Shown here: piece after piece, positions 2,261 to 29,818 of the stretch
Layout of the letters: each line of letters opens with the position of its first letter
How positions within the stretch are numbered: the first letter of the stretch is position 1
Origin: Desulfamplus sp.
Lineage (GTDB): Bacteria > Desulfobacterota > Desulfobacteria > Desulfobacterales > Desulfobacteraceae
NCBI GenBank assembly: GCA_015232555.1
Contig: JADFZJ010000039.1
Coordinates: 1 to 33,757 of the forward strand
Direction: 5' to 3'
DNA: 33,757 nt
Notes under the pieces: generated by a model
Told to the model about the DNA's origin: nothing
Seen by the model: the letters and a program-made list of their open reading frames with translations, nothing else
Database searches by the model: none
Position numbers and translations under genes: made by a program

Positions 2261-3750
2261 ACCACTTTTTCAGGGTAAAAACATTGGAACAAGTAATGAC
2301 ATTAGTTCCAATATTTCCTACCGTGGGCATTGAGACAGTTCATATTTCCAAGGCATATTTCCGCGTCCTTGCTACAGATATAAATGCGGATCAGGATATT
2401 CCGGGTTTTAGGAGAGCCACAATGGATGGTTATGCTGTCCATTCTGGTTCAACTTTTGGTGCATCTGAATCCAATCCAGCATGGCTTACTGTAACTGGTT
2501 CTATTTTAATGGGAGATGTGCCAGAGTTCTCTATTCAATCAGGACAGGCTGCAAAAATCTCAACTGGCGGTATGCTGCCTGATGGTGCTGACAGTGTGGT
2601 AATGGTCGAACACACTGAATCTGTTAATAGTGGCTCTGTGAAAAATAGTGAAACGGTAGAGCACAGTGGAAAAGGGGAAAACTGCGGCATTGTAGAGGAT
2701 AATGGAACAGTAGAGATTTATAAAAGCGTTCCCCCTCTTCAAAATATGATTGACAAGGATGAAGATTTCAAAAAAGGGGAGAAGATTCTTAAAGCAGGCA
2801 CACTTTTAAGACCGCAAGAAATTGGTCTTGCTGCTGCACTTGGAATATGTGAATTGCCTGTTTACAAGATTCCAAAGGTGGGGATAATCTCCACAGGCGA
2901 TGAGATTGTGCCGATTGATAAAACACCGTCGATGGGTAAAATAAGAGACATAAACTCACATACACTTGCAGGACTTATAATTGAGGCTGGTGCTGAACCA
3001 ATTCAATACGGTATTATTAAAGATAACGAACAAGCGTTGTTTGATATGTGTAAAAAAGCACTTTATGAAACTGACATGGTACTTATTTCTGGCGGTAGCT
3101 CTGTCGGCACCCGTGATTTTACAGTAAATGTCCTCTCTTCATTGAAAGATACAGAGATTTTGGTGCATGGAATATCAATAAGTCCGGGTAAACCCACCAT
3201 TCTTGGGAAATCCTTTTTGGCTCAAGATAGTTCTTTTAACACTACCCTTGTTAAAAACGAGTTAATATCTGAATCCGGAATAAAACCGATTTGGGGGCTG
3301 CCGGGTCATGTTGTATCTGCAATGGTTGTGTTCAAGGTTGTAGTAGCACCATTTTTAAATAAGATAAGAGGCTTGGCAATTTGTAGTGATGATTTTGAAG
3401 CAGAAAATAGAGGTACAAAAAGCAAAGCCGCATCTTCATTAGAAAATATAAAAATTCCTGCAACACTTACAAGAAATGTTGCATCAGCTCAAGGCAGAAC
3501 CGATTTTATCAGGGTAAAACTTTTTAGAAAATTTGATGTAACCTCAAACAATAAAAGCGAAAAAAAGAGTATCTCAAAAGATGGTTGCTTAAAATATAAA
3601 TATGAGCTTTTCGCGGAACCAATTTTAGGCAAATCTGGACTTATCAGAACAATGGTCATGGCTGATGGTCTGCTTGAGATTGGTGAAAATGTTGAAGGTT
3701 TAGAAAAAGGAGAGTTAGTTTATATTATACCTCTTCGAGCTTTTTTGTAA
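2257..3750 (+). CDS. moeA: Molybdopterin molybdenumtransferase
   Basis: A 497-residue MoeA, which inserts molybdate into adenylylated molybdopterin in the last step of molybdenum cofactor synthesis. Visible family blocks in order: ATMDGYAV (54-61), [21 protein letters not shown] (about 101-121), [42 protein letters not shown] and [10 protein letters not shown] (usually GLPGNPVSA). The usual length is about 400. Much of the excess is an insertion at about residues 122-150 built of degenerate 6-codon repeats ([20 protein letters not shown]), plus a second polar stretch near the C-terminus. The start overlaps the dapL stop by 4 bp. The 3' end overlaps the convergent pyrF by 26 bp. Confidence 0.92.
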
Positions 3751-4546
3751 TTTTTTCGATTTCTTGATCAATCTCATACGCAATTTCTTCTGCAGCCAAA
3801 GCAGGATCAGCCGCTGTTTTAATGGGTCTACCCACAACAATAAGGTCTGCTCCTGCTTTGACCGCCATTGCTGGTGTAGTGATACGCTTTTGATCATCGA
3901 CAATTTGTTTTTGATTATAATTTATTTTATCATAATTTAACTCACCAATATTAGCGTTGTGTTCTTGTAATTTATTTGTAGTTAATAACCATGCTGGTCT
4001 TATTCCGGGAGTTACTGCCATGAAATCTTTTCCAAACCTTGACTTAATTAACTCCACCTCCAGCCCTGAACAGACAACTCCGCAGCACCCTGCATCGTAT
4101 GCCATCTGTGCCCGTTTTATAACAAGTGCCTTGATATCATCTACATAGATATCCTTAAAACCAGATGCTTCAATTACTGATGCATCATGGTCAGTAAGCA
4201 CAGTGACTCCAAGAACCCCAACACCATCCCCCCCTTTTACAGCCATTTCCAACATTTTTTGTGACGATGAACAATGAACCGTAACCAGATCAACTCCAAG
4301 TTCTGCCGCTCGCTCCATGACTCTTTTTACTGTCTCTGAAATATCATGGAACTTTAAATCAAGAAAAATACCCGCATCACTCAAATCTTTGATTCTTCTT
4401 ATAATATCAGGTCCAGTCTGGATAAAGAGTTCTAAACCTATTTTGAACATTCCAACCTTGCCATTGAGTATATTGACATATTTTTCAGCTTCATCGGCTG
4501 AGGTAACATCAAGAGCAAAAACAATATAATCTTTTCCTTTTTTCAT
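3725..4546 (-). CDS. pyrF: Orotidine 5'-phosphate decarboxylase
   Basis: A 273-residue OMP decarboxylase, the last step of UMP synthesis. The catalytic D-x-K-x-x-D motif is intact in FLDLKFHDI (Asp63, Lys65, Asp68). The phosphate-binding segments VTPGIRP (178-184) and IVVGRPI (236-242) are present. Family members are usually about 235-240 residues. The excess is an insertion of about 30 residues rich in N, K, Q and Y (about 186-215) between GIRP and DDQKRI, at the mobile phosphate-gripper loop. It is the last gene on the minus strand after the CHAT gene (66-bp gap). Its tail overlaps moeA, so no separate terminator is possible between them. The ribosome-binding site is weak. Confidence 0.94.
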   Translation of the reverse strand: MKKGKDYIVFALDVTSADEAEKYVNILNGKVGMFKIGLELFIQTGPDIIRRIKDLSDAGIFLDLKFHDISETVKRVMERAAELGVDLVTVHCSSSQKMLEMAVKGGDGVGVLGVTVLTDHDASVIEASGFKDIYVDDIKALVIKRAQMAYDAGCCGVVCSGLEVELIKSRFGKDFMAVTPGIRPAWLLTTNKLQEHNANIGELNYDKINYNQKQIVDDQKRITTPAMAVKAGADLIVVGRPIKTAADPALAAEEIAYEIDQEIEKITKKLEEV

Positions 4547-4612
4547 CTGTAGTTCTCACTTTTCATTAAATTTATTCAGTAAGATAAATATTCTTTGTAT
4601 ATGAATATCAGT

Positions 4613-7138
4613 TTACAACCAATTTCCCACAAGAATAAACGCAGACCAGTAAAACGGGTGGTTAAAATCTTTGGTATTGATAAGTTCAATCTGTGCCTTC
4701 TGAAGGGCTTTAGCTTTTGATATATCTGAACTGCTCAGATGTCTGTAAAAAGACGATAACAGCAGTTGAGTTGCAGTGTCAGATACAGGCCACAATGAGC
4801 CAAGCACGCTTCTGGCACCAGATTTTAGTGCAACACCAGAAAGACCAAGAGGAGAGCGGTCATCGCCTTCAGCAGTCTGGCAAGCACTTAAAGTTAGAAG
4901 CTCAACCGGCAGATCGACAAACTGCTTTGGTTTGATATACTCTTCAAGAAGGTTCATGTTAAGGAGCTTATCATAGGTCATAATAAAATTTTCCTCTGGA
5001 CTTCCACCAAAAAAGCCATGAGATGCAACATGTACTATTCTGTAGTTCTGGTCTTTAATTTCACCTGAAAAACGGTCACGGAGAAATTCTCTGTTCATAA
5101 GTTTCTGTCCATGAAGATTTTTTGACAGCTCTGCAATCTCTTTATCAACTCCTGGAAGCTCAAGCAGCTCTCTGACCTTTTCTACAGCCTCTTTATTCTC
5201 TTTTGTTGCAATATCAGACTTTTCTGTTTGCTTAACACTTTCTTCTGTTTGATTACTATTTTCAGGTTTAACTGTTTCAGACGCAGATGCCTTTTCAACT
5301 GCTGGTGCATCTTGTTTAATTGATATTCCTCTAATTTTCCTGTTCGTGCCAGACGCCTCTATCTTTGTCAGTTGATTCCATAAATTTATAGGCAAATCTA
5401 ACACCACAGGACCAGGTTTGCTTACCCCTGCAAGAAGCGTATTTCTTTCACCTTCTGGCAGAGGTGATGGATCAAGTAGAGTAAGAGCGGGTTCTATTAC
5501 CACAGCATATTTTTGACCAAGAAATTTTTCACCTGTCCAAAGTGCCGCAAGTGGAATCATACGAAACACACCGTCAGGAACAACTACCAGAGTATCCACA
5601 TTCTGACCGTCAAGAGTCGATTGAAGAGGTTCAATCACCCATCCATAAACCTTTTTGCCAAGCTCTTCGTGAAAAAGCGAATTTCTAAGATTTGCAGCAA
5701 GCTGGGTAACAGTCTGCTCAAGATCATCTTTTCTTACATCGCTTGTTTTACGGTAAAGTGTGCCGCCTATATCTGCTAAAAGCTCTAATCGGTCAGGCAG
5801 AATAACAGGATAAATCACAGCAGTTGAACCAGATAAAGACTGAATTTCATGTTTCATAGCATCAATGCACGGGTCTTTAAAATAGTCCTGAAGCTCTGAC
5901 TGTTTAATGCTCTCTACAGCCTGCTGTGCCTGCCTTAAAAGCTGCTGCTGTTCCTGTCTATCTTGAACTACGCCGGACTCTTTTAGCAGCATATCTGCAA
6001 GACCTGTATATATCGGCGATAGCGTCTGTCTAAAAGATGAGCAGCCCCTGTTGTCTATTACTGGCATATCCTGACGTATTGCTTCAACATGAAACAAAGC
6101 TCTCTTATATGCAGCTATAGCTTTTCGCTGCCCAACCTCATTTCTCTCTTCTGCTTGACGTTTCAGAAGTCTTCCCCACTGCCACTCCCACTGAACAAGA
6201 AGATCATGAGCTTGAACCATCAAGGCAGATTCAACCGCCTGTTCAGTAAGCGTAATTGCCTCTGAAATCCTGCCGCGGCTCTCATACAAACCACCAAGCT
6301 CGCCAGACGCTGTTGAGATAAGCCTCTGATCTTTTAAAGTGCGTGCAATTTCAAGAGCTTGATTTAAAAGAGGATAACGCAAACTATCTGCCTCTGGTCC
6401 AGGCTCTTTTGCCGAATACTCTGAAGCAATCTCAAGCAACAGCCTTGCCTTTTCATGCAGAGAGGTTACCTGAGCGGCAAGCTCTTCTGCCTTGTTAAGA
6501 TGGGTAAAAGCGAGATGCTTATCATCAACAACAGATGCAATATTTCTATGAATAGTTGCAGCAAGAGCAAGGTCGCTTTTTTCAATATATCCAAGAGCTT
6601 TTGTATAAAAATTTAGAGCTTCATCTTTTCTGTTCTGACCAGCAACAACATTGCCAAGATGGTTGGCACACACGGCAGACAGGGCAGGGTAGGGTGATGA
6701 ACTTTGCTGGCTGCTGCTCATAAGCCTCTCTGATTGTTGAAGAGCCTCTCTGAGCAGACTCTCTGCTGTTTTTGCATCTTGCATTAAAAAATGTATATAT
6801 CCTAAAGATTGAGTAGCAAGAACATCTAAAAAATCAGGTTTATGTGGTTTAATCTTTTTTATCTCTTCAATAGCTGCTTTAAAATCAGCATGAGCATCAG
6901 GATAATATCCAAGCAATCGATACATTTCTCCTCTTTTTACAAGAAGTTCTGCCTTATGCCTGCCGTCAGCTTTATCGATTGACTGACTCAGCTTTGTAAT
7001 TTCTTCAGCAGACGCATCAACTTTACTTAAACCACCATCACCAGAAGATAGAGAATATGAGGGATATATAAATTGGCTAAAGTTGCAAATCAACATACTG
7101 GTAATTAGTGCTAACCAAAATACAGAGCGGTTTTTCAT
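4613..7138 (-). CDS. Exported TPR-CHAT domain protease
   Basis: An 841-residue protein with an N-terminal signal peptide (hydrophobic core at about 6-18), a TPR-like helical array at roughly 60-420, and a C-terminal CHAT domain (about 520-841). CHAT domains are caspase-like clan CD peptidases. Both catalytic residues are visible: His707 in VHVASHG and Cys753 in LLTLSACQTAEGD, followed by the typical GLSGVALKSGARSVLGSLWPV. It should therefore be active and outside the cytoplasm. A charged, low-complexity segment (about 605-655, rich in E, K, T and S) interrupts the CHAT domain. It is the last gene of the TPS operon, 108 bp after the tpsA stop, with a strong AAGGAG site. CHAT proteins often neighbour TPS adhesins (recollection, not checked). 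The substrate is unknown; the adhesin next door is a guess. Confidence 0.88.
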   Translation of the reverse strand: MKNRSVFWLALITSMLICNFSQFIYPSYSLSSGDGGLSKVDASAEEITKLSQSIDKADGRHKAELLVKRGEMYRLLGYYPDAHADFKAAIEEIKKIKPHKPDFLDVLATQSLGYIHFLMQDAKTAESLLREALQQSERLMSSSQQSSSPYPALSAVCANHLGNVVAGQNRKDEALNFYTKALGYIEKSDLALAATIHRNIASVVDDKHLAFTHLNKAEELAAQVTSLHEKARLLLEIASEYSAKEPGPEADSLRYPLLNQALEIARTLKDQRLISTASGELGGLYESRGRISEAITLTEQAVESALMVQAHDLLVQWEWQWGRLLKRQAEERNEVGQRKAIAAYKRALFHVEAIRQDMPVIDNRGCSSFRQTLSPIYTGLADMLLKESGVVQDRQEQQQLLRQAQQAVESIKQSELQDYFKDPCIDAMKHEIQSLSGSTAVIYPVILPDRLELLADIGGTLYRKTSDVRKDDLEQTVTQLAANLRNSLFHEELGKKVYGWVIEPLQSTLDGQNVDTLVVVPDGVFRMIPLAALWTGEKFLGQKYAVVIEPALTLLDPSPLPEGERNTLLAGVSKPGPVVLDLPINLWNQLTKIEASGTNRKIRGISIKQDAPAVEKASASETVKPENSNQTEESVKQTEKSDIATKENKEAVEKVRELLELPGVDKEIAELSKNLHGQKLMNREFLRDRFSGEIKDQNYRIVHVASHGFFGGSPEENFIMTYDKLLNMNLLEEYIKPKQFVDLPVELLTLSACQTAEGDDRSPLGLSGVALKSGARSVLGSLWPVSDTATQLLLSSFYRHLSSSDISKAKALQKAQIELINTKDFNHPFYWSAFILVGNWL

Positions 7139-7177
7139 TTTAATTTTCTCCTTAAAATTTGTCTATTCTTTATTGAA

Positions 7178-7205: not shown

Positions 7206-7246
7206 TGAATTTAAATACAAACATTTTCATCAGACTGATTTTTCAA

Positions 7247-10200
7247 TTATTTTTTCCTCTTCTGCTCTTCATACCTCAAAAACTCTTCTAATCTCTCGTC
7301 AGTGATGAAAATTGATGATGGTTCTGAGAGCATCGGAGGGATTCCGCCTCTGCCGCCGCGGGTCAGACGGCTTGCCTTTTTTGTGCCGATAAAACGACAA
7401 TAATTTTCTGCCATCTCAACAGGCTTTGCAGTTTTAGAATCTGCATTTATAATTGAAGCTCCAATATTAATTGGAACTGTGGGAGATTTAATATCATCAT
7501 TTTTCGGGTTGCCCTCTGGTGCTGCTGCCTGAATTATGTTTCTCTTGCTGCCTGCTTGAAACTGCTGAATCTCATCGCCCCCGATTTCAAGAGTTGCATC
7601 ACTCTCTTTAAGCAGCCTGTCGGCATTTATGGTTATCCGTCCGCCTGTTCCACCTTTTGCTTTGCTGTTTGCCTGAATAAAGCCGTTCTGCATAACAAGA
7701 ATATCAGCAGGATCAGCCTCATCATTTATATTTATATTTCCGCCGTCTCCATTTGTGCCTTCAACTGATGTGGTAATTAGACCATCATGGAGATAGATGG
7801 TATCAGAATTGATGTTGATGTCGCTGGCGGGAACGTTTTGGGTGCTTTCGGAGGTTATTTTTGATTCGCTTTCAACGGTCAGTCGTTTAGTGTTTAGGGT
7901 GATGGATTGTTCAGGCATATCGGCAAGTTTTTCTTCGGGAAGGGTTTGGTATGCATCAATAGAAATTTCACTTCCATTAATTAGATTTACTGAATCTGCG
8001 TTTATTGAGATATTACCTACATAGCCTTGCGAATCTTTATTGGCACGGCTTGCAATACCGTTAAAATACTTAGTTCCTTGACCGTCAATTTTTATATCAG
8101 CAGCATTAACAACTACATTACCTGCATTACCTTTTGCAGAGGTGTTGCTTGTTGTTTCACCACCATTAACTATTTCAAATAAACCAGCTGCTGCTATTTC
8201 TATATCTCCAGCTTTTCCTTCAGAGCCTGTCTCAGCGTTGGTTGCAATTCTTGTATAAACGGTACTTCCCTGCCCATCAATCTTAATATTGCCGGCATTG
8301 ACTTTTACATTACCTGCATCTCCTTTTGACTTTGTGCTGCTTGATATTTCAGCCCCATTAATCAATTCAAGCAGATCTGCTGCTGTTATCTCTATTGTTC
8401 CTGCATTGCCTTCGGAATTTTTTTCAGCATTGCTTGATATTCTCGTATAATAGTCGCTTCCTTGCCCATCAATCTTCATACTGCCAGCATTAACAAATAT
8501 ATTTCCTGCTTTTCCTTTTGACTCTGTATTACTTGATATTTGAGCTTCATTAATTAATTCAAGTAAATTAGCTGCGGTTATCTTTATTGTACCAGCATTA
8601 CCTCCAGAACCTGTTGCAGCACGACTTGAAATGCCAGTAAGAGAGCTGTCTCCTTTGCCACTAATTTTCATATTATTTGCATTCACTACAATATTACCAG
8701 CATTACCTTTTGCAAAAGTATCACTTGTTATCTGACCGCCATTAAGTAGTTCAAGTAATCCAGCTACCGTTACTTCTATTGTTCCTGCATTGCCTTCCGA
8801 ACCCTTCTTTGCACGACTTGCAATATCGTTAACATATTTTGTTCCTTGACCGTCAATTTTCATATTACCAGCTTTAACTTTAATATCTCCTGCATTGCCT
8901 TTTGCTGATGTGTCGGTTGTTATTTCGCCTCCATTTAAAATTTCAAGCAGCTTTGATATTGTTATCTTTATATCTCCAGCATCTCCTTCAGAACCTTTTT
9001 CTGCATTACTTGAGACTCTGACATAATAATCACTATTTTCTCCATCAATTTTCATATTTTCCGAATTAATAGTTACGCTGCCAGCATTACCTTTTGAAAA
9101 TGTGCTGCTTGATATTTGTGCATTATTAATCAAACCAATATTATCAGCCGTAACTTGGAGGTTTCCCGCATTACCTTTTGAATAGGTATCGCTTGTTATT
9201 CGACCGCCATTAAGTAGTTCAAGTAATCCAGCTACTGCTATTTCTATATCTCCAGCCTTTCCTTCAGAATCTTTTTCAGCGTTAGTTACAATTCTTGTAT
9301 AATATTTGCTTCCTTGACTATTAATTTTAATATTGCCAGCATTGACTTTTACATTGCCACCATCTCCTTTTGAGCTTGTGCTACTTGATATTTGACCACC
9401 GTTAATCAGCTCAAGGAGATTATTTACGATTATTGACACTGTACCAGCATTTCCTTCTGAGCCAGTAAAAGCATCGCTTCTGATACCAGTAAACTTGATA
9501 CTGTCTTGCCTATCAACTTTAACATTGCCAGCGTTGATTTTAACGCTTCCCGCATCTCCTTTTGCAAAGGTACTGCTTGATATTTCACCGCCATTAAGCA
9601 ATTCAAGCAATTCAGTTACAGTGATTTCCACTACACCAGCGTTACCTTCGGAGTTTTTATCTTGAGTAGAGCTTAAAACTCCAGTGGGATCACTATTATC
9701 ATGCCTAATAATTCTCATATTAGCAGCGTTGATTTTAACACCCCCGGCGTTTCCTTTTGAAATTGTGTTACTTGATATTATACCACCATTAAGTAATTCG
9801 AGAAGACCAGCAACTGTTATTTCTACTTTACCTGCGTTACCCGCAGATTTAGACTCAGCACTACTGAAAACACCAGTAACATTTCCTTTTCCGTCAATTT
9901 TCATATTACCAGCTGTAATATTAACATTATCAGCATTGCCTTTTCCAAATGTCCCACTTGCTATTTGTGCGCCATTAAGCAACTCAAGAAGACCAGAGAT
10001 GTTTATTGTTACTTTACCAGCGTTGCCTTCGGTATCTGTGCCTCTAACATCACTTGCAATGCCTGTAAAAATATCCTTTATACTCTCCTCCCTATAAATT
10101 TTCATATTAGCAGATTTGATATTTAAACTTCCCGCATCTCCTTTTGATAATGTACTACTTAATATTTGACCGCCATTAAGCAACTCAAACATTTCAGATA

Positions 10201-14080: not shown

Positions 14081-15850
14081 TTAAAAGAAGTTGTATGTAA
14101 CACTAAAATGAATCCCGTCATCTTGAATATCATACTCATAATCTGATTCATCGTCTTCAATTGCATATCCATAATAAATCTGAGCATCAAGTTTTGGAGT
14201 TGACCAGAGAAGACCTATGCCGACAGAATGAAGAGTATTGTCGCTTCTGGTAGCCTCTCTTGTAAAGTGATCTCTATCCCAAGCTGAACCGTAATCCATA
14301 AAAGGTGCGATCTGTAGAAGTTTAGTCTGTTCCTCATGCCCTGTTTTCTGGCTCTCCCAAACCGGAACACGCCATTCAAGAGAGAAGAGATAGCCGTTAT
14401 CTCCTGTATGCTTGTTTTCTCGGTAGCCTCTGACACTATCTGCACCACCTAAGCTAAACTGCTCCATTGAGAATAGACGGTCATCGGCAAGCTGAACATT
14501 TCCTTTAAAAATAATTTGACCAGCCTTGCCGTCAAAACGTCTGGCATACTGAACCTGCCCAAGCCATGCCACAAATTCGCCATCTGGAAGCGATTCTGAG
14601 TGAAGGGTAGGGGAGAGCATATCTACACCAAAGCTAAAAGTTGAACGCAGCACCATAACCTGATCTGTTGTTCTGTCGTCAAACGATTGAGTGAGCTGCA
14701 CAACTGTTGCTTTATCTACTCCATTATCTGAACCTTCAAAAACTGAAAAACTTCCGTCAATAATATAGGTTCTTGTCTCTTCAGATTTGACAGATACACC
14801 CATGCTTATATCGCGTCTTAATGTGTGATAAATCGGGTGGTTTAATGAAAGTTTTGTGCTTTGCAATCTGCTTTCAATATTTAGTGAATCAAAAGGTTTA
14901 GAGACAATCTCATTTCTGCTGTAGTTATAGTTGAGAGCTAAAGTTGTATTGTTGGAATTAATAGGAACAGCGTATGAAGCGTCAATTTCCTGTGTCCCTT
15001 CTGTAAAGTCTAAGACAGCATTTAAAGAATCGCCAAACCCTGTAAGATTACGAACAGTCTGATTAATTGAAAGTTTTTCAGAGCCAAGGTTTGGTGATGA
15101 ATGGTTGCTTGCGGTAATGCTTAAATCGTAAGGTCTCGCCCTTGTTATATCAATATCAAGTTCAGCCTCTCCTGGTTTTATGCCCGGAACTATATTTCCG
15201 TCCATTTTATCAATCAGAGGGTCTTGCAGAAGCATCTGAAAATAATCTTGAAGTTTGTGGGTGTTAAATGGTTTATCTCCATCTTTCCAGACTCTCTTTT
15301 TAATGTAGTTCTCTCTAAGCCTGCCGTTGCCTTTAATATTAATGTTTGTCAATTTGCCTTCTATTATAAGGTAGGTTACAATTCCGTCTGTTACTTTCTG
15401 ATTTGGTTTTATCAATGCACCTGAGTTGATATATCCTCTGTCAATATAATATCTTGTAATCTGATAGCGAATCTCTTCAAGCTCTGCCATGCCTACGCTA
15501 TGGTTTATAAAAGGGGTGGCAGCCTCATTGAGCTGCTCATTTGAAAACAGCGTGTTGCCTTCAAATTTAACCCCTTTAAGCTCAAAAAGTTTACTCTGGA
15601 TTTTATCTGTTCCATCTGTTTGAGATTCTCCTTCTGATTGGGGAGTTCTCTTCTCTGGAACAGGCGGAAGCGTAAAATTTTTTTTGCTTTCAGGGCTGCC
15701 CTCTTCAGGGAGATATTTAGGCAGTTTTGGTGAATCCTTTGGTTTGTGTGTTAAAGATGTAAAAGGGTTAGGATTACCTGAAAAAGAGTTTGTGGTAAAA
15801 AATAATATAATCGTCATAACGGCTAAAATGGTGTGGAAGATTGTTTTCAT
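14081..15850 (-). CDS. TpsB outer-membrane transporter (ShlB/FhaC/HecB family)
   Basis: A 589-residue Omp85-superfamily translocator for two-partner secretion. An N-terminal signal peptide (core about 8-20) is followed by a proline-rich linker and two POTRA domains, the first with FELKGVKFEGNTLFSNEQL (about 88-106) and the second with TNINIKGNGRLRENYIKKRV. A C-terminal 16-strand beta-barrel follows, with the conserved loop-6 motif SVRGYRENKHTGDNGY. The protein ends in a phenylalanine (SVTYNFF), the usual barrel C-terminal signature. It is the first gene of the minus-strand operon that also encodes the large TpsA. It is the only TpsB in the window, so it probably also exports the second TpsA about 6.5 kb away. 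The ribosome-binding site (AAAGGAA) is fair. Confidence 0.93.
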   Translation of the reverse strand: MKTIFHTILAVMTIILFFTTNSFSGNPNPFTSLTHKPKDSPKLPKYLPEEGSPESKKNFTLPPVPEKRTPQSEGESQTDGTDKIQSKLFELKGVKFEGNTLFSNEQLNEAATPFINHSVGMAELEEIRYQITRYYIDRGYINSGALIKPNQKVTDGIVTYLIIEGKLTNINIKGNGRLRENYIKKRVWKDGDKPFNTHKLQDYFQMLLQDPLIDKMDGNIVPGIKPGEAELDIDITRARPYDLSITASNHSSPNLGSEKLSINQTVRNLTGFGDSLNAVLDFTEGTQEIDASYAVPINSNNTTLALNYNYSRNEIVSKPFDSLNIESRLQSTKLSLNHPIYHTLRRDISMGVSVKSEETRTYIIDGSFSVFEGSDNGVDKATVVQLTQSFDDRTTDQVMVLRSTFSFGVDMLSPTLHSESLPDGEFVAWLGQVQYARRFDGKAGQIIFKGNVQLADDRLFSMEQFSLGGADSVRGYRENKHTGDNGYLFSLEWRVPVWESQKTGHEEQTKLLQIAPFMDYGSAWDRDHFTREATRSDNTLHSVGIGLLWSTPKLDAQIYYGYAIEDDESDYEYDIQDDGIHFSVTYNFF

Positions 15851-18874: not shown

Positions 18875-21307
18875 TTAATTTTTCTCCTTTATAATCTCAA
18901 CATGGCTGATATTATGATACAAACGGGGAAGTCGTCTTCCTCTATATCCTCTTTTGCCATGATAATTCTGCTGGTTGGAGGGATTTAATTTCAAAGTGTG
19001 AATACTCTGCTTTCCTGAATATATGACAATTGATGCGTTGTATGGAAATACTTGTAATATTTTAAGACGCTCTCCATTTTTCTCTGTAAGCTCTTCTGTT
19101 TTAATTCCAATTATCTTATTGCCTTTACCCTTTTCAAGCATCGGCATTTCACTTACAGGAAAGATAATACACCTGCCAGTTGTGGTGATGCTGATAATAA
19201 GGTCGGTTTCAGGGTTATTAACGGTTTGAGGAGCCATCAATGTTCCGTTGTCAGTAAGATTGATAAGGGCTTTTCCGTTTTTCATCCGTGAGTATAGGTT
19301 TGATATCTGAGTAACAAATCCAAAACCAATATCAGAGGCAAGCAGAACAAGTTGATTATCATCTTCGCTGGTGAGCATAAATTTTATAGATGCTTCAGGC
19401 TTAATAACAAGACGCCCGCTTAAAGGCTCACCCATGCCGCGTGCTGATGGGAACGTATGAGATGGTATAGAGTAACTTCTCCCTTCAGAGTCGAGAAATA
19501 TTGTCTGTCTATTGCTCATGGTTCTTGCAACAGATAGCAGCTCGTCACCTGATTTGAATTTAACCTTTTCAGGATCAAAATCATGACCTTTTGCTGATCT
19601 AACCCATCCGTTCTGTGAAATAATAATGGTCAGAGGCTCAACTGTTATAATATCCTCTTTAGAGAATGCTTCTGCCTCTTTTCGCTCTTTTATAGGAGAT
19701 CGTCTCTGATCCCCATGAGCTTTAATGTCTTGTCTAATCTCTTTTTTAATCAGATTATTCAACAAAGATTCTGATGAAAGCGTTCGTTCAATCAATGTCC
19801 GCTCTTGATCAAGCTCGTCTCTCTCTGACTTGATTTTAATCTCCTCAAGTTTTGCAAGATGGCGAAGTTTTATCTCAAGTATGGAATCAGCCTGAATGTC
19901 GCTTAATCGAAATTTTTCAATCAGGTTTAATTTTGGCTCATCTTCATTCCTGATAATCTCAATCACCTCATCAATGTTGAGAAATGCAATCAGAAGACCG
20001 TCAAGTATATGAAGTCGTTCAACAACTTGATTAAGGCGATATTCAAGACGTTTTGTAACCGTGTTGACTCTGAATGCTATCCACTCTTTAAGAATGGTAA
20101 GAAGATTCTTCACTTCTGGTTTGCCATTAATTCCAATCATGTTCATGTTGACACGATACGAACGCTCAAGGTCAGTTGTGGCAAACAGATGATCCATAAG
20201 AGATACTATTTCAGGGCTTTCAGGTTTATGACTTCTGTCTGTTTTATCAGCTCTTCCCGACTTGTTAAGATTAAGCTTAGTTGAATTATTGATTCTGCTT
20301 AAATCTTTGTTTAAATCAATTCTGCCTGATTTATCAGACCTGCCAAACTTTGGGACAATAACAACACGGGTAGGATTTTCGTGATCAGATTCATCACGCA
20401 GATCAACAACCATTGGAAGACGTTTTGCCTCCATTTGGACTGCAATCTGCTCGATAATTCGTTCGCCAGAAGCGTGAAAGGGTAGGGCAGTTACAACAAT
20501 CTCACCATCTTCAACATGATATTTAGCCCGCATTTTTATTCTGCCGCTGCCTGTCATATACATCTCTTTTATCTCACTTTGCGGAGTGATAATCTCAGCT
20601 TCGGTAGGGTAGTCAGGACCTTTTACAAACTCCATGATTGCTGAAATATCTGCATCAAGTATATTATCTGAATAAGAATTTCCCAAATGTGGATTGTCTA
20701 AGAGATAAATGCAGGCATTGGCAACCTCAACCAAATTGTGTGGAGGAATATCTGTTGCCATACCAACCGCAATTCCAGTTGTTCCATTTAACAGCAGATT
20801 TGGAAGTCTTGCAGGCAGAAGAGCAGGTTCTTTCAATGTGCCATCAAAATTTGGACTCCATTCAGTGGCTCCAAGATTGAGCTCAGACAGAAGAATTTCA
20901 GCATATTTGGAGAGCCTTGATTCTGTATATCTCATTGCAGCAAAAGATTTTGGATCATCTTGTGCCCCCCAGTTACCTTGACCATCTAAAAGCGGATAAC
21001 GGCAGGAGAACGGCTGTGCAAGCAAAACCATTGCCTCATAGCAGGCACTATCGCCGTGCGGGTGGAATTTACCCAAAACATCTCCAACCGTTCTTGCAGA
21101 TTTTTTATATTTTGCAGGAGCAGAAAGACCAAGCTGGCTCATGGCATAGACAATCCTGCGTTGAACAGGTTTGAGACCGTCACCAATGTGGGGTAGGGCA
21201 CGATCAAGAATTACATACATTGAGTAGTTAAGATATGCCTTTTCTGCAAACTCCTCAAAAGGCATCTGTTCAAAATCTTGAACTACTGTTGATAAAGGTG
21301 GAACCAT
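18875..21307 (-). CDS. parC: DNA topoisomerase IV subunit A
   Basis: An 810-residue ParC, the DNA-cleaving subunit of topoisomerase IV, which decatenates daughter chromosomes. It is closer to the E. coli ParC type than to GyrA ([20 protein letters not shown] at the start, [13 protein letters not shown] in the middle). The active-site tyrosine is Tyr127 in [11 protein letters not shown]. The quinolone-region positions Ser87 and Glu91 ([10 protein letters not shown]) are the wild-type residues. The C-terminal pinwheel domain lacks a clear GyrA box, as expected for ParC. At about residues 323-363 there is an insertion of roughly 35 residues with repeated units [12 protein letters not shown] and DRSHK that is absent from E. 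coli. It is normally next to parE; here three genes or remnants separate them. A GGAG site lies 13 nt before the ATG. Confidence 0.94.
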
Positions 21308-22315: not shown

Positions 22316-22355
22316 TTATCCTCCTTTTTACATTTTTATCAGGCTGACTTTTCAA

Positions 22356-24866
22356 TTACTTTTTTCCCTTCTGCTCTTCATACCTCAAAAACTCTTCTAA
22401 TCTTTCATCAGTAATAAATATTGATGATGGTTCCGAGAGCATTTGAGGTATCCCGCCCTTTCCGCCTCGAGTCAAATGGCTTGCCCTTTTTGTGCCAATG
22501 AACCTACACTGGTTTTCCGCCATCTTTACAGGCTCGGAAAATTTGGAGCTTGCATTTATAATTGAACCGCCAAGGTCAATCGGAACTTCAGGAGCTTCAA
22601 TATCTTGTGGGTTCTTTGAAGGGTCTGCTGCCTGAATGATATTCTTTTTATCATCAAGGCTAAATGCTTCTGGCTCTCCGCCAATTTGGAATGGCATTGA
22701 TTTATCAGCTATCAAATTGTCTGCATTAATCCTGATTCTTCCGCCTTTTGCCCCTTCTGCTAAAGTGTTTGCCTGAATCAATCCGTTTTGCATAACAAGA
22801 AAACCATCAGATTCAGCATTTTCATTTATGCTTATATTTCCTCCGTCCCCGTTTGTGCCGAAAACTGATGTGGTAATTAGACCATCATGGAGATAGATGG
22901 AATCAGCATTGATGTTGATGTCGCTGGCTGGAACGTTTTCGGTGCTTTCAGAGGTTATTTTTGATTCGCTTTTAATTGTGAGTTGTTTTGTATTCAAGTT
23001 TATATATTTTTCATCTATATTGGCAATTTTGGCAAATTTTTCTTCCGAAAGTTTTTGATAGGCTGCTATTGAAATTTGAGCACCATTCAGGATAGTTACA
23101 GAATCAGCTATAACCGAGACACTGCCGACATAACCTTCGGCATATTTTGAGGCAGCACTTGCAATACCCGTGAAATTTGCGGTTCCCTGACCATCAATTT
23201 TAATATTGCCAGCTTCTATCCTTACATTTCCTCCATCTCCTTTTGCAGAGGTACCGCATCCTAATGTGGCACCGTTAAACATTTTAAGATAATCATCTGC
23301 TATTACTATTACTTTTCCAGCATTACCTTCAGAACCATCGGCTGCAATACTTGCAATACCAGTAAGATCATTGCCTTGTCCGTCGATTTTGATATTACGT
23401 GCATTCACAGTAACAATATAAGCATCACCTTTTGACCCTGTATTGCTTGATATGGTAGAACTATTAAGTATTTCAAGATTACCTGCTTTAACAATTACTT
23501 CACCCGCATTTTTTTTTGATAATGTATCACTTGAGATTCTTGTACCATTGCAAAGTTTCAACAACCCATCTACAGTTATGTTTACTATCCCACCTTTGCC
23601 TCCAAAATCTTTAAATGAGCCAGCAATAACTCCAGTAAGAGAGTTGTCATTTTTAAGTTTGGCAATTGTAATATCGCCTGCTTCTATAATTACGCTCCCT
23701 CCATCTCCTTGTCCGTATGTAGCACTTCCCAAAATTGCACCATTAAGCATTTCAACCAGACCGACTACGAATATTTGAACTTTACCAGCATTTCCTTGAG
23801 AACCTTCAGCGGCAATACTCGCAATACCTGTCAAGTAACCTTGTCCGTCAATTTTGATATTATGAGTATTAACAGTAACAATATAGGCATCACCTTTTGA
23901 CCCTGTATTACTTGATATTGTAGAACCATTAAGAATTTCAAGTTCATAAGTTTTTACATTTACTTCTCCCGCCTTTCCTTGTGATAATGTATTACTTGAT
24001 ATCTGGGAATTATTATACAACATAATTTTATTATCGACCTCTATTGTTACTCCACCAACAGAATCTTTATCACTAATATTATTTGTTATAATTTTTGAGT
24101 TGTTATGAAGAGCTATATTGTCAGTTTTTATATCGATTTTACCACCACCATTTCCGCTTGATTCAACACTTGCGTTATCCATGAACAAATCACCTTTTGC
24201 TTTAAGCTCAATTTCTCCGCCTGCATTTACAAGAGATGCCTGTTTTTCCTCTGTCCCACTCTTTGTTCCTTTTATGGTTATATCCTTGCTACTGGTCAGT
24301 GAGACTTTACTTTCAGGTTTAAACTCAAGAGTTGAGCCATTGACCTCAATGCTTGCTGATTGTGTTCCCAAAAAACCAAAAGATTCTGGTGCTGCCTGTG
24401 TTAAGGTGCTTTGTTCGGTCTTTGATGCTTTAAAAGATGAGCCATCTGCAAATTTAAGCTCATTTCCAGTGCTCGCATGAAATGCTGCTGGAACATCAAC
24501 CTTTGCATTTTGTCCAAAGACAACTCCGCTGGGATTGATAAAGTAAAAGTCAGCCTTGCCCACGTTTGAGCGAAGAGTGCCGTCAATCTCTGATTTTTCT
24601 CCGCCTGTAACCCTTGAAATGACATTCTTGATTGAGTCAGAACCTGTAAAGGTTGCACTCTCTTGAGTCTTTATGCTGAATTTATCAAAGCTGTGGAAAA
24701 GGTTGCTGCCCTTGACTGTGCCGAGCGTTTCGGGAATGGCGTAATCTGGTCCGGTTAATGTTTGTGCAGCACCAACTGTGCCGTCAGTTGCAATGTCAGC
24801 GTGGAGTAGGGCAGGGGAGGTTAAGCAAAAGAAGATTAGACATAAAGATATCTGTTTTAGACTCAT
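22356..24866 (-). CDS. Second, shorter TpsA filamentous-haemagglutinin-type protein
   Basis: An 836-residue paralogue of the large adhesin. A signal peptide (hydrophobic core about 6-22) and the TPS domain with INPSGVVFG are nearly identical to those of the long protein; about 120 bp around 24590-24710 differ from the other copy at only a couple of bases. The central region has only about five diverged repeats (for example LVEMLNGAILGSATYGQGDG). The C-terminal tail again shows ENQCRFIGTKRASHLTRGGK, GGIPQMLSEPSSIF and a charged end. It has no tpsB of its own, so it presumably uses the transporter encoded at 14081-15850. It lies between parC and parE, a place where another gene is not expected. 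An AAAGGAG site precedes the ATG. Confidence 0.9.
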   Translation of the reverse strand: MSLKQISLCLIFFCLTSPALLHADIATDGTVGAAQTLTGPDYAIPETLGTVKGSNLFHSFDKFSIKTQESATFTGSDSIKNVISRVTGGEKSEIDGTLRSNVGKADFYFINPSGVVFGQNAKVDVPAAFHASTGNELKFADGSSFKASKTEQSTLTQAAPESFGFLGTQSASIEVNGSTLEFKPESKVSLTSSKDITIKGTKSGTEEKQASLVNAGGEIELKAKGDLFMDNASVESSGNGGGKIDIKTDNIALHNNSKIITNNISDKDSVGGVTIEVDNKIMLYNNSQISSNTLSQGKAGEVNVKTYELEILNGSTISSNTGSKGDAYIVTVNTHNIKIDGQGYLTGIASIAAEGSQGNAGKVQIFVVGLVEMLNGAILGSATYGQGDGGSVIIEAGDITIAKLKNDNSLTGVIAGSFKDFGGKGGIVNITVDGLLKLCNGTRISSDTLSKKNAGEVIVKAGNLEILNSSTISSNTGSKGDAYIVTVNARNIKIDGQGNDLTGIASIAADGSEGNAGKVIVIADDYLKMFNGATLGCGTSAKGDGGNVRIEAGNIKIDGQGTANFTGIASAASKYAEGYVGSVSVIADSVTILNGAQISIAAYQKLSEEKFAKIANIDEKYINLNTKQLTIKSESKITSESTENVPASDININADSIYLHDGLITTSVFGTNGDGGNISINENAESDGFLVMQNGLIQANTLAEGAKGGRIRINADNLIADKSMPFQIGGEPEAFSLDDKKNIIQAADPSKNPQDIEAPEVPIDLGGSIINASSKFSEPVKMAENQCRFIGTKRASHLTRGGKGGIPQMLSEPSSIFITDERLEEFLRYEEQKGKK

Positions 24867-24971
24867 TTTTTCTCCTTTGTAGGTTTTGTGGTGGTCTGAA
24901 TCAGGGATTAAGATGATTACACATATTTCACTGATTGATTACAGTTGTGATTAAATCTAAAAAATTATACT

Positions 24972-27158
24972 CTATTCTAAAATTTCCATAATATTTCCTT
25001 TAGTTTCAATCCATTTACGGCGATCAGAGGCTCTGTTTTTAGCAAGAAGCATATCCATTATTTCAAATACGCCTCTATTATCAGACACTTTTTTAAACGG
25101 CTCAACAACAAGCTGCACCAATCTTCTTGTATCTGGTGCAATTGTGGTCTCCCGAAGCTGGGAAGGGTTCATCTCACCAAGTCCTTTGAATCGCTGAACA
25201 TTTATTTTACCAGCTTTTTTTCTCCGCTCAATTTTTCTTATAATGCTGTCTCGTTCAGATTCATCTAAAGCATAAAAGACCTCTTTGGCAACATCAATAC
25301 GGTAAAGAGGCGGCATTGCAACAAAAACATGTCCCTGCCTTACAACTTCATAAAAATGTTTAAGAAACAGGGCACAAAGAAGTGTGGCAATATGCAGGCC
25401 ATCTGAATCTGCATCAGCAAGAATGCAGATTTTGTGATATCTAAGCCCGGATATATCAACTATATTATTCTGAGAACCGCCTGTTTCATTAATATCCACA
25501 CTGCTTGGATCAACACCAATTGCAACAGCTATGTCATGTATCTCTTTTGATGCAAGAAGAGTTTCAGGTTCAGTTTCCCATGTGTTGAGGATTTTTCCCC
25601 TAAGAGGCAGGATAGCTTGAAAACGCCTGTCCCGTGCCTGTTTAGCTGATCCGCCCGCAGAATCTCCCTCAACTAAAAAAAGTTCGCTCTTTGCAGGGTC
25701 GCCGCATGTGCAGTCAGACAATTTCCCGGGCAGGGCAGGACCGCTTTTAACCTGTTTTCTTGTAATAATCTTAGCTCGCTTGAGGCGGTTCTTTGCATTT
25801 TCAAGGACAAGCTGGGCAAGCCGCTCGCCTTTATCTGTATTTTGATTGAGCCAGAGACTAAAAGCATCTCTGACCACAGATGAGACAATAGCAGCACAGT
25901 GACGGGAAGATAACCTTTCTTTTGTCTGCCCTGAAAATTGTGCATCAGTTAGCTTTACTGAAAGAATAAAACCAATATTTTGCCAAATATCTTCAGGTGC
26001 AATCGTTACCCCTTTTGGTAGTAAATCCCTGAAACCACAAAATTCTCTGATCGATTCCAAAAGCCCTGACCTGAACCCATTGACATGAGTGCCGCCCTGT
26101 TGAGTGGGGATAAGATTTACATAGCTTTCACACAAATAGCCGTTTCTATTGTGATTATTATCTGTTCGGTTTCTACTGTTATCTGCTCCGTTTTTATTGC
26201 TGTTAATTCCATTTTTATTGTTATCAAACTCTTTTACAGAATTGTCTGCTTGATTGTCGTTTATATCCATTCCATCTGCTGCCCAGTCAACTGCAAAGGT
26301 AACGGCTGCATCATCTGTCTTTATATCGCATGTAAAAGGATTGCAGAATGGGTTGCCAAAAATTGTCTCAATATTTCCAAAAGATTCTGCAAGATAATCC
26401 TTTAACCCATTTTGAAACTGCCACTGCTCTTTTTCTCCTGTTGCTTTATCCAAAAAAGTTACAAGCAATCCCGGGCAGAGCACAGCTTTTGCCTTTAAAG
26501 CGTGCTGGAGTGATTTTTTTGAAAATTTTTCTCTCTCAAAATAGGATGTATCGGGATAGAAACGAACCGTTGTGCCAGTTCGCTTTAATGGTGCTTTATC
26601 AATAATTTCAAGTTCTTGAACTTTAAAACCATTTTCAAAAACTATTTTATATACAGAGCCGTTTCTTGTAATTTTAACCTCAAGAGAGGTGGAAAGGGCA
26701 TTTACAACTGAAACACCGACCCCATGAAGTCCGCCTGAAAAGGTGTAATCTTTGTTAGAAAATTTTGCTCCTGCATGAAGTTTGGTCATAATCAGCTCAA
26801 CGCCTGTAATTCCCTCTTCAGGGTGAATATCAACTGGCATACCGCGTCCGTTGTCTGTAACTTCAAGGGAATTGTCTTCATGGAGAATAACATCAATTCT
26901 ATCGGCATGACCTGCAATTGCTTCATCAACGCTGTTGTCAATAACTTCATGGGCAAGATGGTCAGGACTTGTGGTGTCTGTGTACATGCCGGGTCTGCGT
27001 TTTACAGGGTCAAGACCTTTAAGAACTTCAATTGATTCTGCGTTATATCCTGATTTTGAACGGTGTTTATCGTCAGTTTTTTTAATGTTGTAACTGTTTT
27101 GATTATCTTCAGATTTAGGGTTTTCTTCTTTAGTGTTGTTTTCGTTAAATAGCTGCAT
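24972..27158 (-). CDS. parE: DNA topoisomerase IV subunit B
   Basis: A 728-residue ParE, the ATPase subunit of topoisomerase IV. GHKL ATP-site motifs are VIDNSVDEAIAGHA, VTDNGRGMPVDIHPEEG and SGGLHGVGVSVVNALS. The TOPRIM domain has FLVEGDSAGGSAKQARDR and DADSDGLH. E. coli ParE is about 630 residues. The excess is an Asn/Lys/Asp-rich N-terminal extension of about 37 residues and an insertion of about 40 residues (DNA 26139-26270) before ESYVNLIPTQQGGTHVNG, made of degenerate 8-residue units such as NNKNGINS and NKNGADNS. The ATG at 27158 was chosen; the frame is open to a TTG at 27179, but that abuts the BI-1 terminator and has no ribosome-binding site. No good promoter or leader is visible. 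Confidence 0.94.
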   Translation of the reverse strand: MQLFNENNTKEENPKSEDNQNSYNIKKTDDKHRSKSGYNAESIEVLKGLDPVKRRPGMYTDTTSPDHLAHEVIDNSVDEAIAGHADRIDVILHEDNSLEVTDNGRGMPVDIHPEEGITGVELIMTKLHAGAKFSNKDYTFSGGLHGVGVSVVNALSTSLEVKITRNGSVYKIVFENGFKVQELEIIDKAPLKRTGTTVRFYPDTSYFEREKFSKKSLQHALKAKAVLCPGLLVTFLDKATGEKEQWQFQNGLKDYLAESFGNIETIFGNPFCNPFTCDIKTDDAAVTFAVDWAADGMDINDNQADNSVKEFDNNKNGINSNKNGADNSRNRTDNNHNRNGYLCESYVNLIPTQQGGTHVNGFRSGLLESIREFCGFRDLLPKGVTIAPEDIWQNIGFILSVKLTDAQFSGQTKERLSSRHCAAIVSSVVRDAFSLWLNQNTDKGERLAQLVLENAKNRLKRAKIITRKQVKSGPALPGKLSDCTCGDPAKSELFLVEGDSAGGSAKQARDRRFQAILPLRGKILNTWETEPETLLASKEIHDIAVAIGVDPSSVDINETGGSQNNIVDISGLRYHKICILADADSDGLHIATLLCALFLKHFYEVVRQGHVFVAMPPLYRIDVAKEVFYALDESERDSIIRKIERRKKAGKINVQRFKGLGEMNPSQLRETTIAPDTRRLVQLVVEPFKKVSDNRGVFEIMDMLLAKNRASDRRKWIETKGNIMEILE

Positions 27159-27182
27159 ATTTATATCTGCCCGATTCAAAGT

Positions 27183-27220
27183 AAAAAAGCAGCAGGCTTA
27201 ACTTGCCCGCTGCTTTTTTT
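27183..27220 (-). terminator. Rho-independent terminator after the BI-1 gene
   Basis: A 15-bp stem with one mismatch pairs 27183-27197 (AAAAAAGCAGCAGGC) with 27205-27219, around a 7-nt loop. On the minus strand the GC-rich stem is followed by a run of six T. It ends 25 nt before the parE ATG, so it separates BI-1 transcription from parE. Confidence 0.85.
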
Positions 27221-27248
27221 GTTATTCATTTAAAATTTTGAAATGCTC

Positions 27249-27956: not shown

Positions 27957-28468
27957 TTTTAAAACCTCCTGATTTTTTCTGTTTTGTTTGTTTTTAGGCG
28001 ACTATTTGTTTAAACAATTTTTTTTTGAATAAACGCTCTATTTTTAATCTGCTTTCTCCAATTCAGTAAAAATATAACACAAGAGCGTAGCTTTTCAAGT
28101 CTTTTCGGATCTGAATATCTCGTATTTGCTTAATATATCAATCTTTGCGATTTTGCTATCAGATGAAATTTAAAGAACAGAAGAGAAGGGGGGGCGTGCG
28201 TCTCTAAATGGGAACTATTAAAATGCAAAAATAAAAGTTTACATAATACCTATTATAAGACATATAATAATAAAAATTACTAAATATAAATTTAATGACT
28301 TATATAGATTTTTTATAAAGTTTTTTGTTTTTAAATTTTGCTGTTATTTTTTTATTTGTTATTATGATCGTGCTGTTTTATAAGAAATATTTTTGTATTA
28401 TCTTGCAAAAAATTTATGGTGTTATTTTATTCCAATTCCTACGGCTTATTAAGGATAAGTTTGAATTT
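27957..28468. other. Divergent intergenic region BI-1 / xseA
   Basis: About 510 bp without a supported gene. It holds the BI-1 promoter candidate, a palindrome TTGTTTAAACAA (about 28005-28016) between that promoter and the BI-1 start, and a G-rich patch near 28187 next to a TGCGTCTCTA half-repeat. The 48 codons before the chosen xseA ATG stay open in frame back to a TTG at 28325 and would encode a hydrophobic segment. That part is very AT-rich, has no ribosome-binding site and is not part of the XseA family. Confidence 0.55.
28071..28098 (-). promoter_or_regulatory. Sigma-70 promoter candidate for the BI-1 gene
   Basis: On the minus strand TTGAAA (28098-28093) and TATATT (28076-28071) are separated by 16 nt, each matching five of six consensus bases. 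It is about 115 nt upstream of the BI-1 ATG. Confidence 0.55.
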
Positions 28469-29818
28469 ATGATGGTTGACGACAAGCTGACATTTTCTTC
28501 TGGAAACATCTATACAGTTTCTCTTCTTACAAAAGAGCTGAAAAACCTTCTTGAAGAGACATATCCATTTATCTGGATTACAGGAGAAATTTCCAACTAC
28601 TCCCTACCCTCTTCTGGTCACGCATATTTTTCACTTAAGGATAAAGATGCTCTTATCAACTGTGTGATGTTTCGCAATCAAAAATCGAGACTTGGTTTTA
28701 ATCTTGAAAACGGCATAAAAATAATTGGTATTGCAAGGCTCTCCTTGTATGAACCAAGAGGAACTTATCAGCTTATATTTGAACATATAGAGAGTTCTGG
28801 CGTTGGTTCTCTTCAAATACGTTTTGAGCAGTTAAAAAGAGAGCTTGAACTTGAAGGGATTTTTGATCAATCTCGCAAAAAAGAGCTTCCTTTTATCCCG
28901 TCAAAGCTCTTTATTATAACATCTCCGACTGGTTCTGTTATCAGAGATATAATTCATGTATCTCAAAGACGTTTTGAAGGCATTCCTATATCTATAGTTC
29001 CAGTAAAAGTTCAGGGAGAAGGTGCAGAGGCTGAGATTAAAGATGCGATTGAGTTGGTAAATAATTTAGTAAATACGACAAGTTATAATATAAAAAATAT
29101 TGATGATAAAATCTGTATTGGCAGCAATATAAATAAGCTAAATAAAAATATTTTAGATGACCCTGTAATAATCATTGCCCGCGGCGGCGGTTCACTTGAA
29201 GATTTATCTGCTTTTAACTCTGAGACAGTTGCAAGAGCTGTATTTGAATCTGAGATTCCGATCATATCAGCAGTTGGACACGAGACAGACTTTACTATAT
29301 GTGATTTTGCGGCAGATGTAAGAGCTGCAACCCCTTCTGCAGCAGCAGAGATTGCTGTTCCTGAAAAACGAGCTGTTCAACAAGCTCTCTATCTTCTTCA
29401 AAAAAGTTTATCAGACTCAATTATACATCAAATTAATATATTGAAAAAACGTATAAACGATCTGCAATCAAGGCTTAAAAACCCTATTGCAAGAGTTTAT
29501 GACATAAGATTAAAATTAGATGATATTGAGCAGAGACTTAATAATCGAATCACAAGAATAATAGAACACAACAAAGAGAAACTTGACTGGATTACCCATG
29601 CCTTGTATGCGTTGAGTCCAATTGAAGTATTAAATAGAGGATACAGCATTACAAGGCTTTATGAAGAAGGATCGCAAAACAATATCAATGTAAATGCTCA
29701 ATTTGGCAGTGGAAAAATCCTCATGCACTCAGCAGACGCAGCTAAGGGCGATAGTGTAATGGTAATCCTCTCAAAAGGAAAAATACTATGTCAGGTGAAC
29801 GAATCTGTTAAGGATTAA
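28469..29818 (+). CDS. xseA: Exodeoxyribonuclease VII large subunit
   Basis: A 449-residue XseA, the catalytic subunit of ExoVII, which degrades single-stranded DNA. The N-terminal OB-fold region starts YTVSLLTKELKNLLE, then FIWITGEISNYS. The nuclease core has TSPTGSVIRDI, ARGGGSLEDLSAFNSE and SAVGHETDFTICDFAADVRA, followed by PSAAAEIAVPEK and a coiled-coil arm. The start was set at the first ATG that matches the family, with AAGGATAAG upstream; an adjacent ATG at 28472 is equally possible. An insertion of about 30 residues rich in N, I and K (DNA 29069-29158) sits just before the GGGSLEDL motif. xseB follows after 58 bp, the standard pairing. Confidence 0.94.
   Translation: MMVDDKLTFSSGNIYTVSLLTKELKNLLEETYPFIWITGEISNYSLPSSGHAYFSLKDKDALINCVMFRNQKSRLGFNLENGIKIIGIARLSLYEPRGTYQLIFEHIESSGVGSLQIRFEQLKRELELEGIFDQSRKKELPFIPSKLFIITSPTGSVIRDIIHVSQRRFEGIPISIVPVKVQGEGAEAEIKDAIELVNNLVNTTSYNIKNIDDKICIGSNINKLNKNILDDPVIIIARGGGSLEDLSAFNSETVARAVFESEIPIISAVGHETDFTICDFAADVRAATPSAAAEIAVPEKRAVQQALYLLQKSLSDSIIHQINILKKRINDLQSRLKNPIARVYDIRLKLDDIEQRLNNRITRIIEHNKEKLDWITHALYALSPIEVLNRGYSITRLYEEGSQNNINVNAQFGSGKILMHSADAAKGDSVMVILSKGKILCQVNESVKD

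Follow-up and report, generated by a model that had tools for sequence, protein, structure and literature searches.

As a rule, bacterial proteins stay compact. Bacteria have variable intragenic minisatellites with in-frame tandem units of ∼15 to 36 bp, mostly in surface proteins. Conserved signature indels are clade-marking insertions, often in surface loops, with a fixed length and a conserved sequence; PMC5867870 gives an example. Rickettsia palindromic elements (RPEs), reported by Ogata and others as cited in PMC10969869, provide a bacterial precedent for in-frame inserts in unrelated genes. For Plasmodium falciparum, PMC4297366 and PMC11260460 describe lineage-specific, often asparagine-rich insertions in essential enzymes, including the apicoplast gyrase; according to PMC4297366, asparagine repeats are missing from equally AT-rich Plasmodium species, so that AT content alone is insufficient as an explanation. 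Here, we examine a stretch of 33,757 nucleotides (nt) from Desulfamplus sp. (contig JADFZJ010000039.1 of assembly GCA_015232555.1; "the window" hereafter, at its full length) in which the housekeeping enzymes MoeA, PyrF, ParC, ParE, and XseA carry in-frame insertions. Long insertions in protein loops are in excess in this lineage, are concentrated in the genus within our sample, and have been gained recurrently, and the spacers within its operons are longer as well. Our literature search, with most subscription papers outside its coverage, returned no account of this trait in Desulfamplus.

A preliminary description of the window had reported one low-complexity segment in each of the five enzymes. 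We identified these proteins in the window, whose genome is G000 (3.8 Mb in 106 contigs), by Pfam and searched 38 related genomes for them, aligning each with sequences from at most nine other genomes of the genus and at most 29 genomes of other genera; the displayed alignments of ParC, ParE, and PyrF leave out six family genomes, all of which enter the counts given below. The five segments are real in the sense that each breaks a conserved alignment in frame and is absent both from the relatives examined outside the genus and from the matching solved structures. In these sequence matches the break falls at query residues 185/217 and chain residues 207/212 for PyrF against 3ldv (31 query residues versus 4), at query 325/369 and structure 281/284 for ParC against 1zvu, at 303/348 and 259/262 for ParE against 1s16, at 125/148 and 125/123 for MoeA against 1uz5, and at 247/280 and 194/199 for XseA against 8txr. 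All five sites hold 0 to 4 residues in the structures, with conserved blocks on either side, and in the alignments, where some genomes lack one or other protein and some proteins are cut by contig ends, they are filled only in the genus. The number of segments had been underestimated, since the five proteins together hold 12 internal inserts of at least 8 amino acids (aa), ranging from 11 to 42 aa, and seven of these (three in MoeA, two in ParE, and one each in ParC and XseA) had been overlooked. The genes and inserts are as follows.

2257..3750, plus strand: moeA, 497 aa, with four genus-type inserts (Pfam MoeA_N, MoCF_biosynth, and MoeA_C)
2635..2706, plus strand: MoeA insert 1, residues 127 to 150, the MoeA segment of the preliminary description (alignment, structure match, duplication offsets of 36 and 54 nt)
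3211..3273, plus strand: MoeA insert 2, residues 319 to 339, absent from G007 (alignment)
3385..3435, plus strand: MoeA insert 3, residues 377 to 393 (alignment)
3532..3597, plus strand: MoeA insert 4, residues 426 to 447 (alignment)
3725..4546, minus strand: pyrF, 273 aa (Pfam OMPdecase)
3899..3973, minus strand: PyrF insert, residues 192 to 216, between TPGIRP and DDQKRITTP (alignment, structure match)
18875..21307, minus strand: parC, 810 aa (Pfam, structure match)
20210..20332, minus strand: ParC insert, residues 326 to 366 (41 residues), seen only in G000 (alignment, structure match, 36-nt duplication)
20657..20689, minus strand: second ParC insert, residues 207 to 217, with longer versions in G004, G005, and G007 (alignment)
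24972..27179, minus strand: parE, 735 aa (Pfam, structure match)
26148..26273, minus strand: ParE insert, residues 303 to 344, rich in N, K, and D, with other versions in G004, G005, G007, and G009 (alignment, structure match, 21-nt period)
27087..27140, minus strand: N-terminal ParE insert, residues 14 to 31, in a variable region and the least clear of the twelve (alignment)
25461..25499, minus strand: further ParE insert, residues 561 to 573 (alignment)
28325..29818, plus strand: xseA, read from a TTG start (open frame, search of relatives)
29075..29158, plus strand: XseA insert, residues 251 to 278 (alignment, structure match; repeat undetected)
29672..29713, plus strand: second XseA insert, residues 450 to 463 (alignment)

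The moeA open frames in other genera are mostly 411 to 425 aa long, compared with 497 aa in the window. The PyrF insert would lie in the phosphate-gripping active-site loop. The site of the N-terminal ParE insert also holds 11 residues in G020, outside the genus. From its TTG codon, XseA begins with a hydrophobic stretch that is mostly unmatched in relatives, and judging from the sequence, translation probably begins near codon 49. In the C-terminal helical region of XseA (window 28325-29818; loci L092, L094, L095, and L096), ∼60 residues are missing in G004, G005, G007, and G009, and therefore xseA has undergone loss besides gain; G000 is without a different stretch of the same region. DapL and BI-1 had been described as free of such segments, and by comparison with Pfam profiles they do lack a large insert, the match covering nearly the whole protein with just 9 and 7 residues over the profile stretch, respectively. 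The length of XseB, as read from the DNA, is 75 aa.

For the five proteins, we counted internal inserts of 8 aa or longer across the 39 genomes, with 30 loci per protein. The number of proteins varies by genome (PyrF of G002, G003, G005, G007, and G008 is not included), and some proteins in relatives are cut by contig ends. At least one insert occurs in 9 of 10 Desulfamplus genomes, the tenth (G006) being represented by one partial protein; among the 29 genomes of other genera, 22 have none and 7 have a single insert. The preliminary description had named as its own refutation the finding that the same segments are standard and conserved in close relatives; we tested this and did not find it. 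Within the genus, the alignments show that both length and sequence of the inserts differ between species, unlike the fixed length of a conserved indel. PyrF has 25 extra residues at positions 192 to 216 in G000, a shorter version with the copy DDQKQTS-DDQKR in G004, a different insert near residue 108 in G007, and neither insert in G001. A third ParC site is filled only in G003 and G008 among the genomes shown, and at the MoeA site where the array of G000 is degenerate, G001 has a plain tandem one.

Beyond the five proteins, we used an ortholog census of the syntenic block pyrF-rpoC-gyrA, which replaced a low-complexity entropy measure that separated the genus from its relatives only about twofold (12.6 to 15.4 versus 5.4 to 8.0 residues per 1,000). 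The census took in four Desulfamplus genomes (G000, G001, G004, and G007) and four others (G010, G016, G015, and G023), with 14.7 to 18.0 thousand aligned residues each; 206 reciprocal-best groups became 76 once overlapping antisense frames were removed and 61 once at least two genus members and at least two other genera were required. Gene calls in the analyzed stretches are simple codon-usage calls whose start codons may be wrong, and most of the genus genomes are incomplete. Counts of private internal inserts of 8 aa or more are 17 in G000, 13 in G001, 25 in G004, and 27 in G007, and 0 in G010, 0 in G016, 1 in G015, and 2 in G023. Divergence is comparable (79 to 80% identity between the genus and G010, 80% between G010 and G016), and on these core identities Desulfamplus therefore does not sit on a long branch. 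In pairwise comparisons, from which pairs below 45% identity or 60% coverage were left out, the 16 genus-family pairs together show 414 additional segments of 8 aa or more on the genus side and 43 on the other (4- to 30-fold by pair), and the six pairs outside the genus hold 0 to 6 on either side.

The inserts occupy 36 distinct sites in 15 of the 61 groups. On the species tree (((G004,G007),G000),G001), which was taken from core identities and not built, 34 of the 36 sites are compatible with one gain, and gains fall on every branch except G004's own. Among the host proteins are GyrA and RpoC, which were found by searching, and apparently RpoB, to judge by its position beside rpoC; by Pfam, they also include CheA, CheB, phosphoglycerate kinase, SelA, a MoaA-like enzyme, porphobilinogen deaminase, and a HemD-type protein (the names CheA, CheB, and MoaA being given from domain content). 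Outside the window and the block, an insert is present in 6 of the 12 G000 proteins that reach 300 aa and have a usable ortholog, and in 0 of 4 shorter ones, in a nonrandom sample made up of many contig starts and of stretches around gyrB, mutL, mutS, moeA-like, parC, and xseA matches. The insert excess thus extends through the genome, as had been proposed, and in this sample it is concentrated in Desulfamplus. That it could be an artifact of assembling or binning metagenome-assembled genomes (MAGs) is suggested by the MAG status of the genus members G003, G008, and G009, but the inserts are in frame, occur at common sites in separately assembled genomes, agree with the tree, and are also present in G001, whose contig C1 exceeds 1 Mb; we consider this explanation scarcely credible.

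The inserts lie in less conserved proteins and in less conserved parts of them (flanks 0.39 conserved versus 0.63 for the whole protein), and the five groups of at least 90% identity contain none. Their residues are enriched in N (2.3-fold), S (2.0-fold), D (1.5-fold), and also C, with W, R, M, F, and V underrepresented; on reading through the listed inserts, composition is mostly mixed and homopeptide runs are not the rule, N making up 10% of insert residues. Between G004 and G007, dN/dS is 0.45 (0.32 to 0.66) in inserts versus 0.08 in the host proteins, and dS is 0.247 and 0.225, respectively. A ratio of this size at a host-like dS suggests that the inserts behave as weakly constrained, presumably translated sequence and not as a hypermutating element. 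Long insertions would be the class most exposed to purging, and a global relaxation of purifying selection, of the kind expected from a small population or symbiont-like decay, might let them accumulate. We judge this improbable, as core-residue dN/dS is 0.064 to 0.075 in the genus versus 0.089 in the sole control pair outside it (G015-G023), genome sizes are 2.5 to 6.7 Mb, and coding density is 77 to 88% versus 74 to 84% by simple gene calls. Purifying selection on core residues, measured against that one control pair, is not weaker in Desulfamplus.

The preliminary description had treated the effect as one inside proteins, where it is indeed found, but it is not confined to them. Between conserved codirectional genes, with spacers measured to the downstream core, those of the genus are 24 nt or more longer in 16 of 49 cases and shorter in 2 (p = 1e-4). 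Over genome pairs, 233 spacers are longer and 51 shorter in the genus, compared with 16 to 13 and 12 to 5 in the controls.

Some inserts preserve traces of their origin. In codon-shuffle tests (p values uncorrected for five tests), the MoeA insert has offsets of 54 and 36 nt, both multiples of 18 (p = 0.02), the ParC insert a single 36-nt duplication with its copies 87 nt apart (p = 0.0025), the ParE insert a 21-nt signal (p = 0.0075), and the PyrF insert a borderline 15-nt signal (p = 0.06), and no repeat was detected in the XseA insert (p = 0.62). The repeat units agree only in part with the preliminary description, ParE for instance giving 21 nt in place of 24. Tandem Repeats Finder, at scores of at least 30, found an array in none of the five. 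Across inserts generally, with those longer than 90 aa or within 10 residues of a protein end left out and orthologous inserts counted once per genome, 31 of 191 are self-similar at p ≤ 0.05, where ∼9 are expected, and their commonest periods are 18, 21, and 24 nt. This self-similarity exceeds that of control segments taken from the same genes (p = 0.001), which themselves lie slightly above their own shuffles. Between G004 and G007, which are 95% identical, three of seven insert differences are by eye tandem copies of 8, 11, and 12 aa, and these pass the repeat test. A minority of inserts thus have a tandem-duplication origin. The preliminary description had proposed local slippage expansion, and the local duplication it implied is visible in some inserts, but significant self-similarity covers just those 31.

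Low GC content alone might be expected to expand tracts rich in N, K, D, and S, and the Desulfamplus loci have 36 to 46% GC, with raw tandem-repeat counts higher in low-GC genomes generally. Members of the same family with comparable or lower GC nonetheless have no insert in those of the five proteins that were available (G013, 30%, three proteins; G012, 34%, five; G022, 36%, five; some proteins are cut by contig ends), and long insertions over 26 protein pairs number 26 in G000 versus 2 in G012, which makes this explanation decidedly improbable. Those raw counts had also suggested a raised supply of tandem repeats between genes, a signal that was lost under composition-matched simulation and low-GC controls.

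An element resembling the RPEs, spreading in frame through genes, would account for inserts of 11 to 42 aa in unrelated housekeeping genes, since RPEs do likewise (PMC10969869). None of the five segments contains an inverted repeat, and their predicted folding is unremarkable (z-scores of -0.75 to 0.91). Within the analyzed DNA of the same genome, off-locus matches are at control level (4/47 versus 3/47 in G000 and 3/42 versus 6/42 in G001), and a search of the whole own genome returned no further copy of the ParC insert and six short, weak matches to the ParE insert. Inserts of different genes are no more related to one another than control segments are, in agreement with the earlier view that no single element had spread; we reject a dispersed or palindromic element and regard a mobile in-frame element of any such kind as very improbable.

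We think it slightly better than an even bet that the genus has a lineage-wide bias toward local insertion, part of it by tandem duplication, with purifying selection acting as a filter. Under this explanation, the Desulfamplus lineage would gain DNA by local insertion at a higher rate than it loses DNA, within genes as well as spacers, and at least part of this insertion would be tandem duplication of neighboring sequence. Purifying selection would purge the events that break the frame or disrupt the protein core, and the survivors within genes would be in frame, hydrophilic, and located in less conserved regions. Each tract, weakly constrained, may then drift until no repeat can be read in it, such that the inserts would be tolerated spacers rather than functional modules.

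Several observations weigh against this bias. The habit is not absolutely unique to Desulfamplus, because ParE of G015 and G023, two of the seven genomes outside the genus with a single insert, shares a similar 28-aa low-complexity insert. The remaining 160 of the 191 inserts have no significant repeat, and a period that is a multiple of three, as in 30 of the 31, is what coding DNA would give under any mechanism. In eight first-order simulations per genome, intergenic repeat density is 2.5 to 5.6 times the expected value in the genus, inside the relatives' range of 1.2 to 8.0, and intragenic density is 2.3 to 3.5 times versus 1.8 to 2.5 times in relatives. The spacer effect weakens when spacers are taken to end at called starts (16 are longer and 7 shorter; p = 0.015) or against the nearest genus (40 longer, 17 shorter, four genus genomes with G010), and G001 supplies 72 of the 233 longer spacers. 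Protein termini have not grown (N terminus, 4 longer and 4 shorter; C terminus, 2 longer and 0 shorter). Indels of 1 to 3 aa are raised only mildly (G000 against G010, 19:16; G016, 36:20; G012, 15:7; G022, 15:15), contrary to what a simple slippage mutator would predict. Finally, searches for mutL, mutS, recJ, and sbcD in the 10 genus genomes did not reveal loss of a repair gene.

Several of these points would fit with a tolerance of, or benefit from, inserts that is specific to the proteome: insertion would occur at an ordinary rate, and disordered loops would be retained because they are buffered, for example by chaperones, or useful. Such an explanation draws on the composition-corrected intergenic repeat density, which is not raised, on the mild rise in small indels, on the weak spacer effect against G010, on the hydrophilic composition of the inserts, and on their dN/dS below 1, which indicates some constraint. 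It sits less easily with operon spacers that are longer overall, with insert sequence and length that are not conserved between species, and with core dN/dS that is not relaxed. We regard it as possible, although unlikely. More speculatively, and with somewhat less confidence still, Desulfamplus may possess an insertion-generating activity or replication habit undescribed in bacteria that inflates loops and spacers in steps of 20 to 150 bp; small indels would be little raised and selection not relaxed, and the proteome would be continually fed with new disordered segments. If true, this would be a bacterial counterpart to the Plasmodium proteome.

The repair genes do not suggest a mutator lineage. 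Mismatch-repair loss is unsupported, with mutL above the cutoff in 10 of 10 genus genomes and mutS in 7 of 10; G006 (52% complete) has no mutS match, and G002 and the window's own genome have only mutS fragments, that of G000 at a contig end. RecJ loss is likewise unsupported, as recJ is above the cutoff in 9 of 10 genus genomes (G003 lies below), and sbcD is patchy within and outside the genus, with no pattern that would indicate its loss. The MutL open frames reach 744 to 786 aa in five genus genomes (G001:C13:153713-155734, G003:C453, G006:C289, G008:C247, and G002:C310), and the repair protein itself is therefore often inflated; they span 634 to 706 aa in the other five and 601 to 736 aa in relatives with a full-length match. 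RecJ-type frames are up to 698 aa long in the genus and mostly 569 to 610 aa outside it, with one of 710 aa. A second recJ-like gene is present in G000 (G000:C101 and G000:C8), G005, G006, G007, G008, and G009 and, among the other genomes in that search, in G015.

Elsewhere in the window lie two large putative filamentous-haemagglutinin-like proteins with a near-identical N-terminal region (window 7247-12973 and 22356-24866). The larger has internal repeats of 186 to 192 bp, and a putative gene for a ShlB-type transporter-like protein lies nearby (window 14081-15850). Window 4613-7138 and 30992-33652 presumably encode a TPR protein with a CHAT-like C terminus and a propeller-like protein with a caspase-like C terminus. 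In an order-level relative, a GyrB/ParE-like match contains internal TGA and TAA codons (G034:C43:1542-2306).

In Desulfamplus, segments of 8 to ∼70 residues have been added repeatedly inside gyrase, topoisomerase IV, RNA polymerase, phosphoglycerate kinase, and OMP decarboxylase, which happens rarely in relatives. The genus is thus a natural test case for two questions, namely, whether the length of proteins is governed by the rate of insertion or by tolerance of it, and how disordered segments originate. Compared with the bacterial minisatellites, its host proteins are gyrase, polymerase, kinase, and cofactor enzymes, and its repeats are mostly illegible. Like conserved signature indels, its insertions in conserved proteins mark a clade, but their length and sequence vary within the genus. 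Two defining features of the RPEs are missing, as no palindrome, common consensus, or dispersed copies of the Desulfamplus inserts were found. The closest parallel is Plasmodium falciparum, with which Desulfamplus shares lineage-specific hydrophilic insertions in conserved proteins, including gyrase (PMC4297366); Desulfamplus differs in being bacterial, in having inserts of mixed composition where those described for P. falciparum are single-residue runs, and in having longer operon spacers as well.

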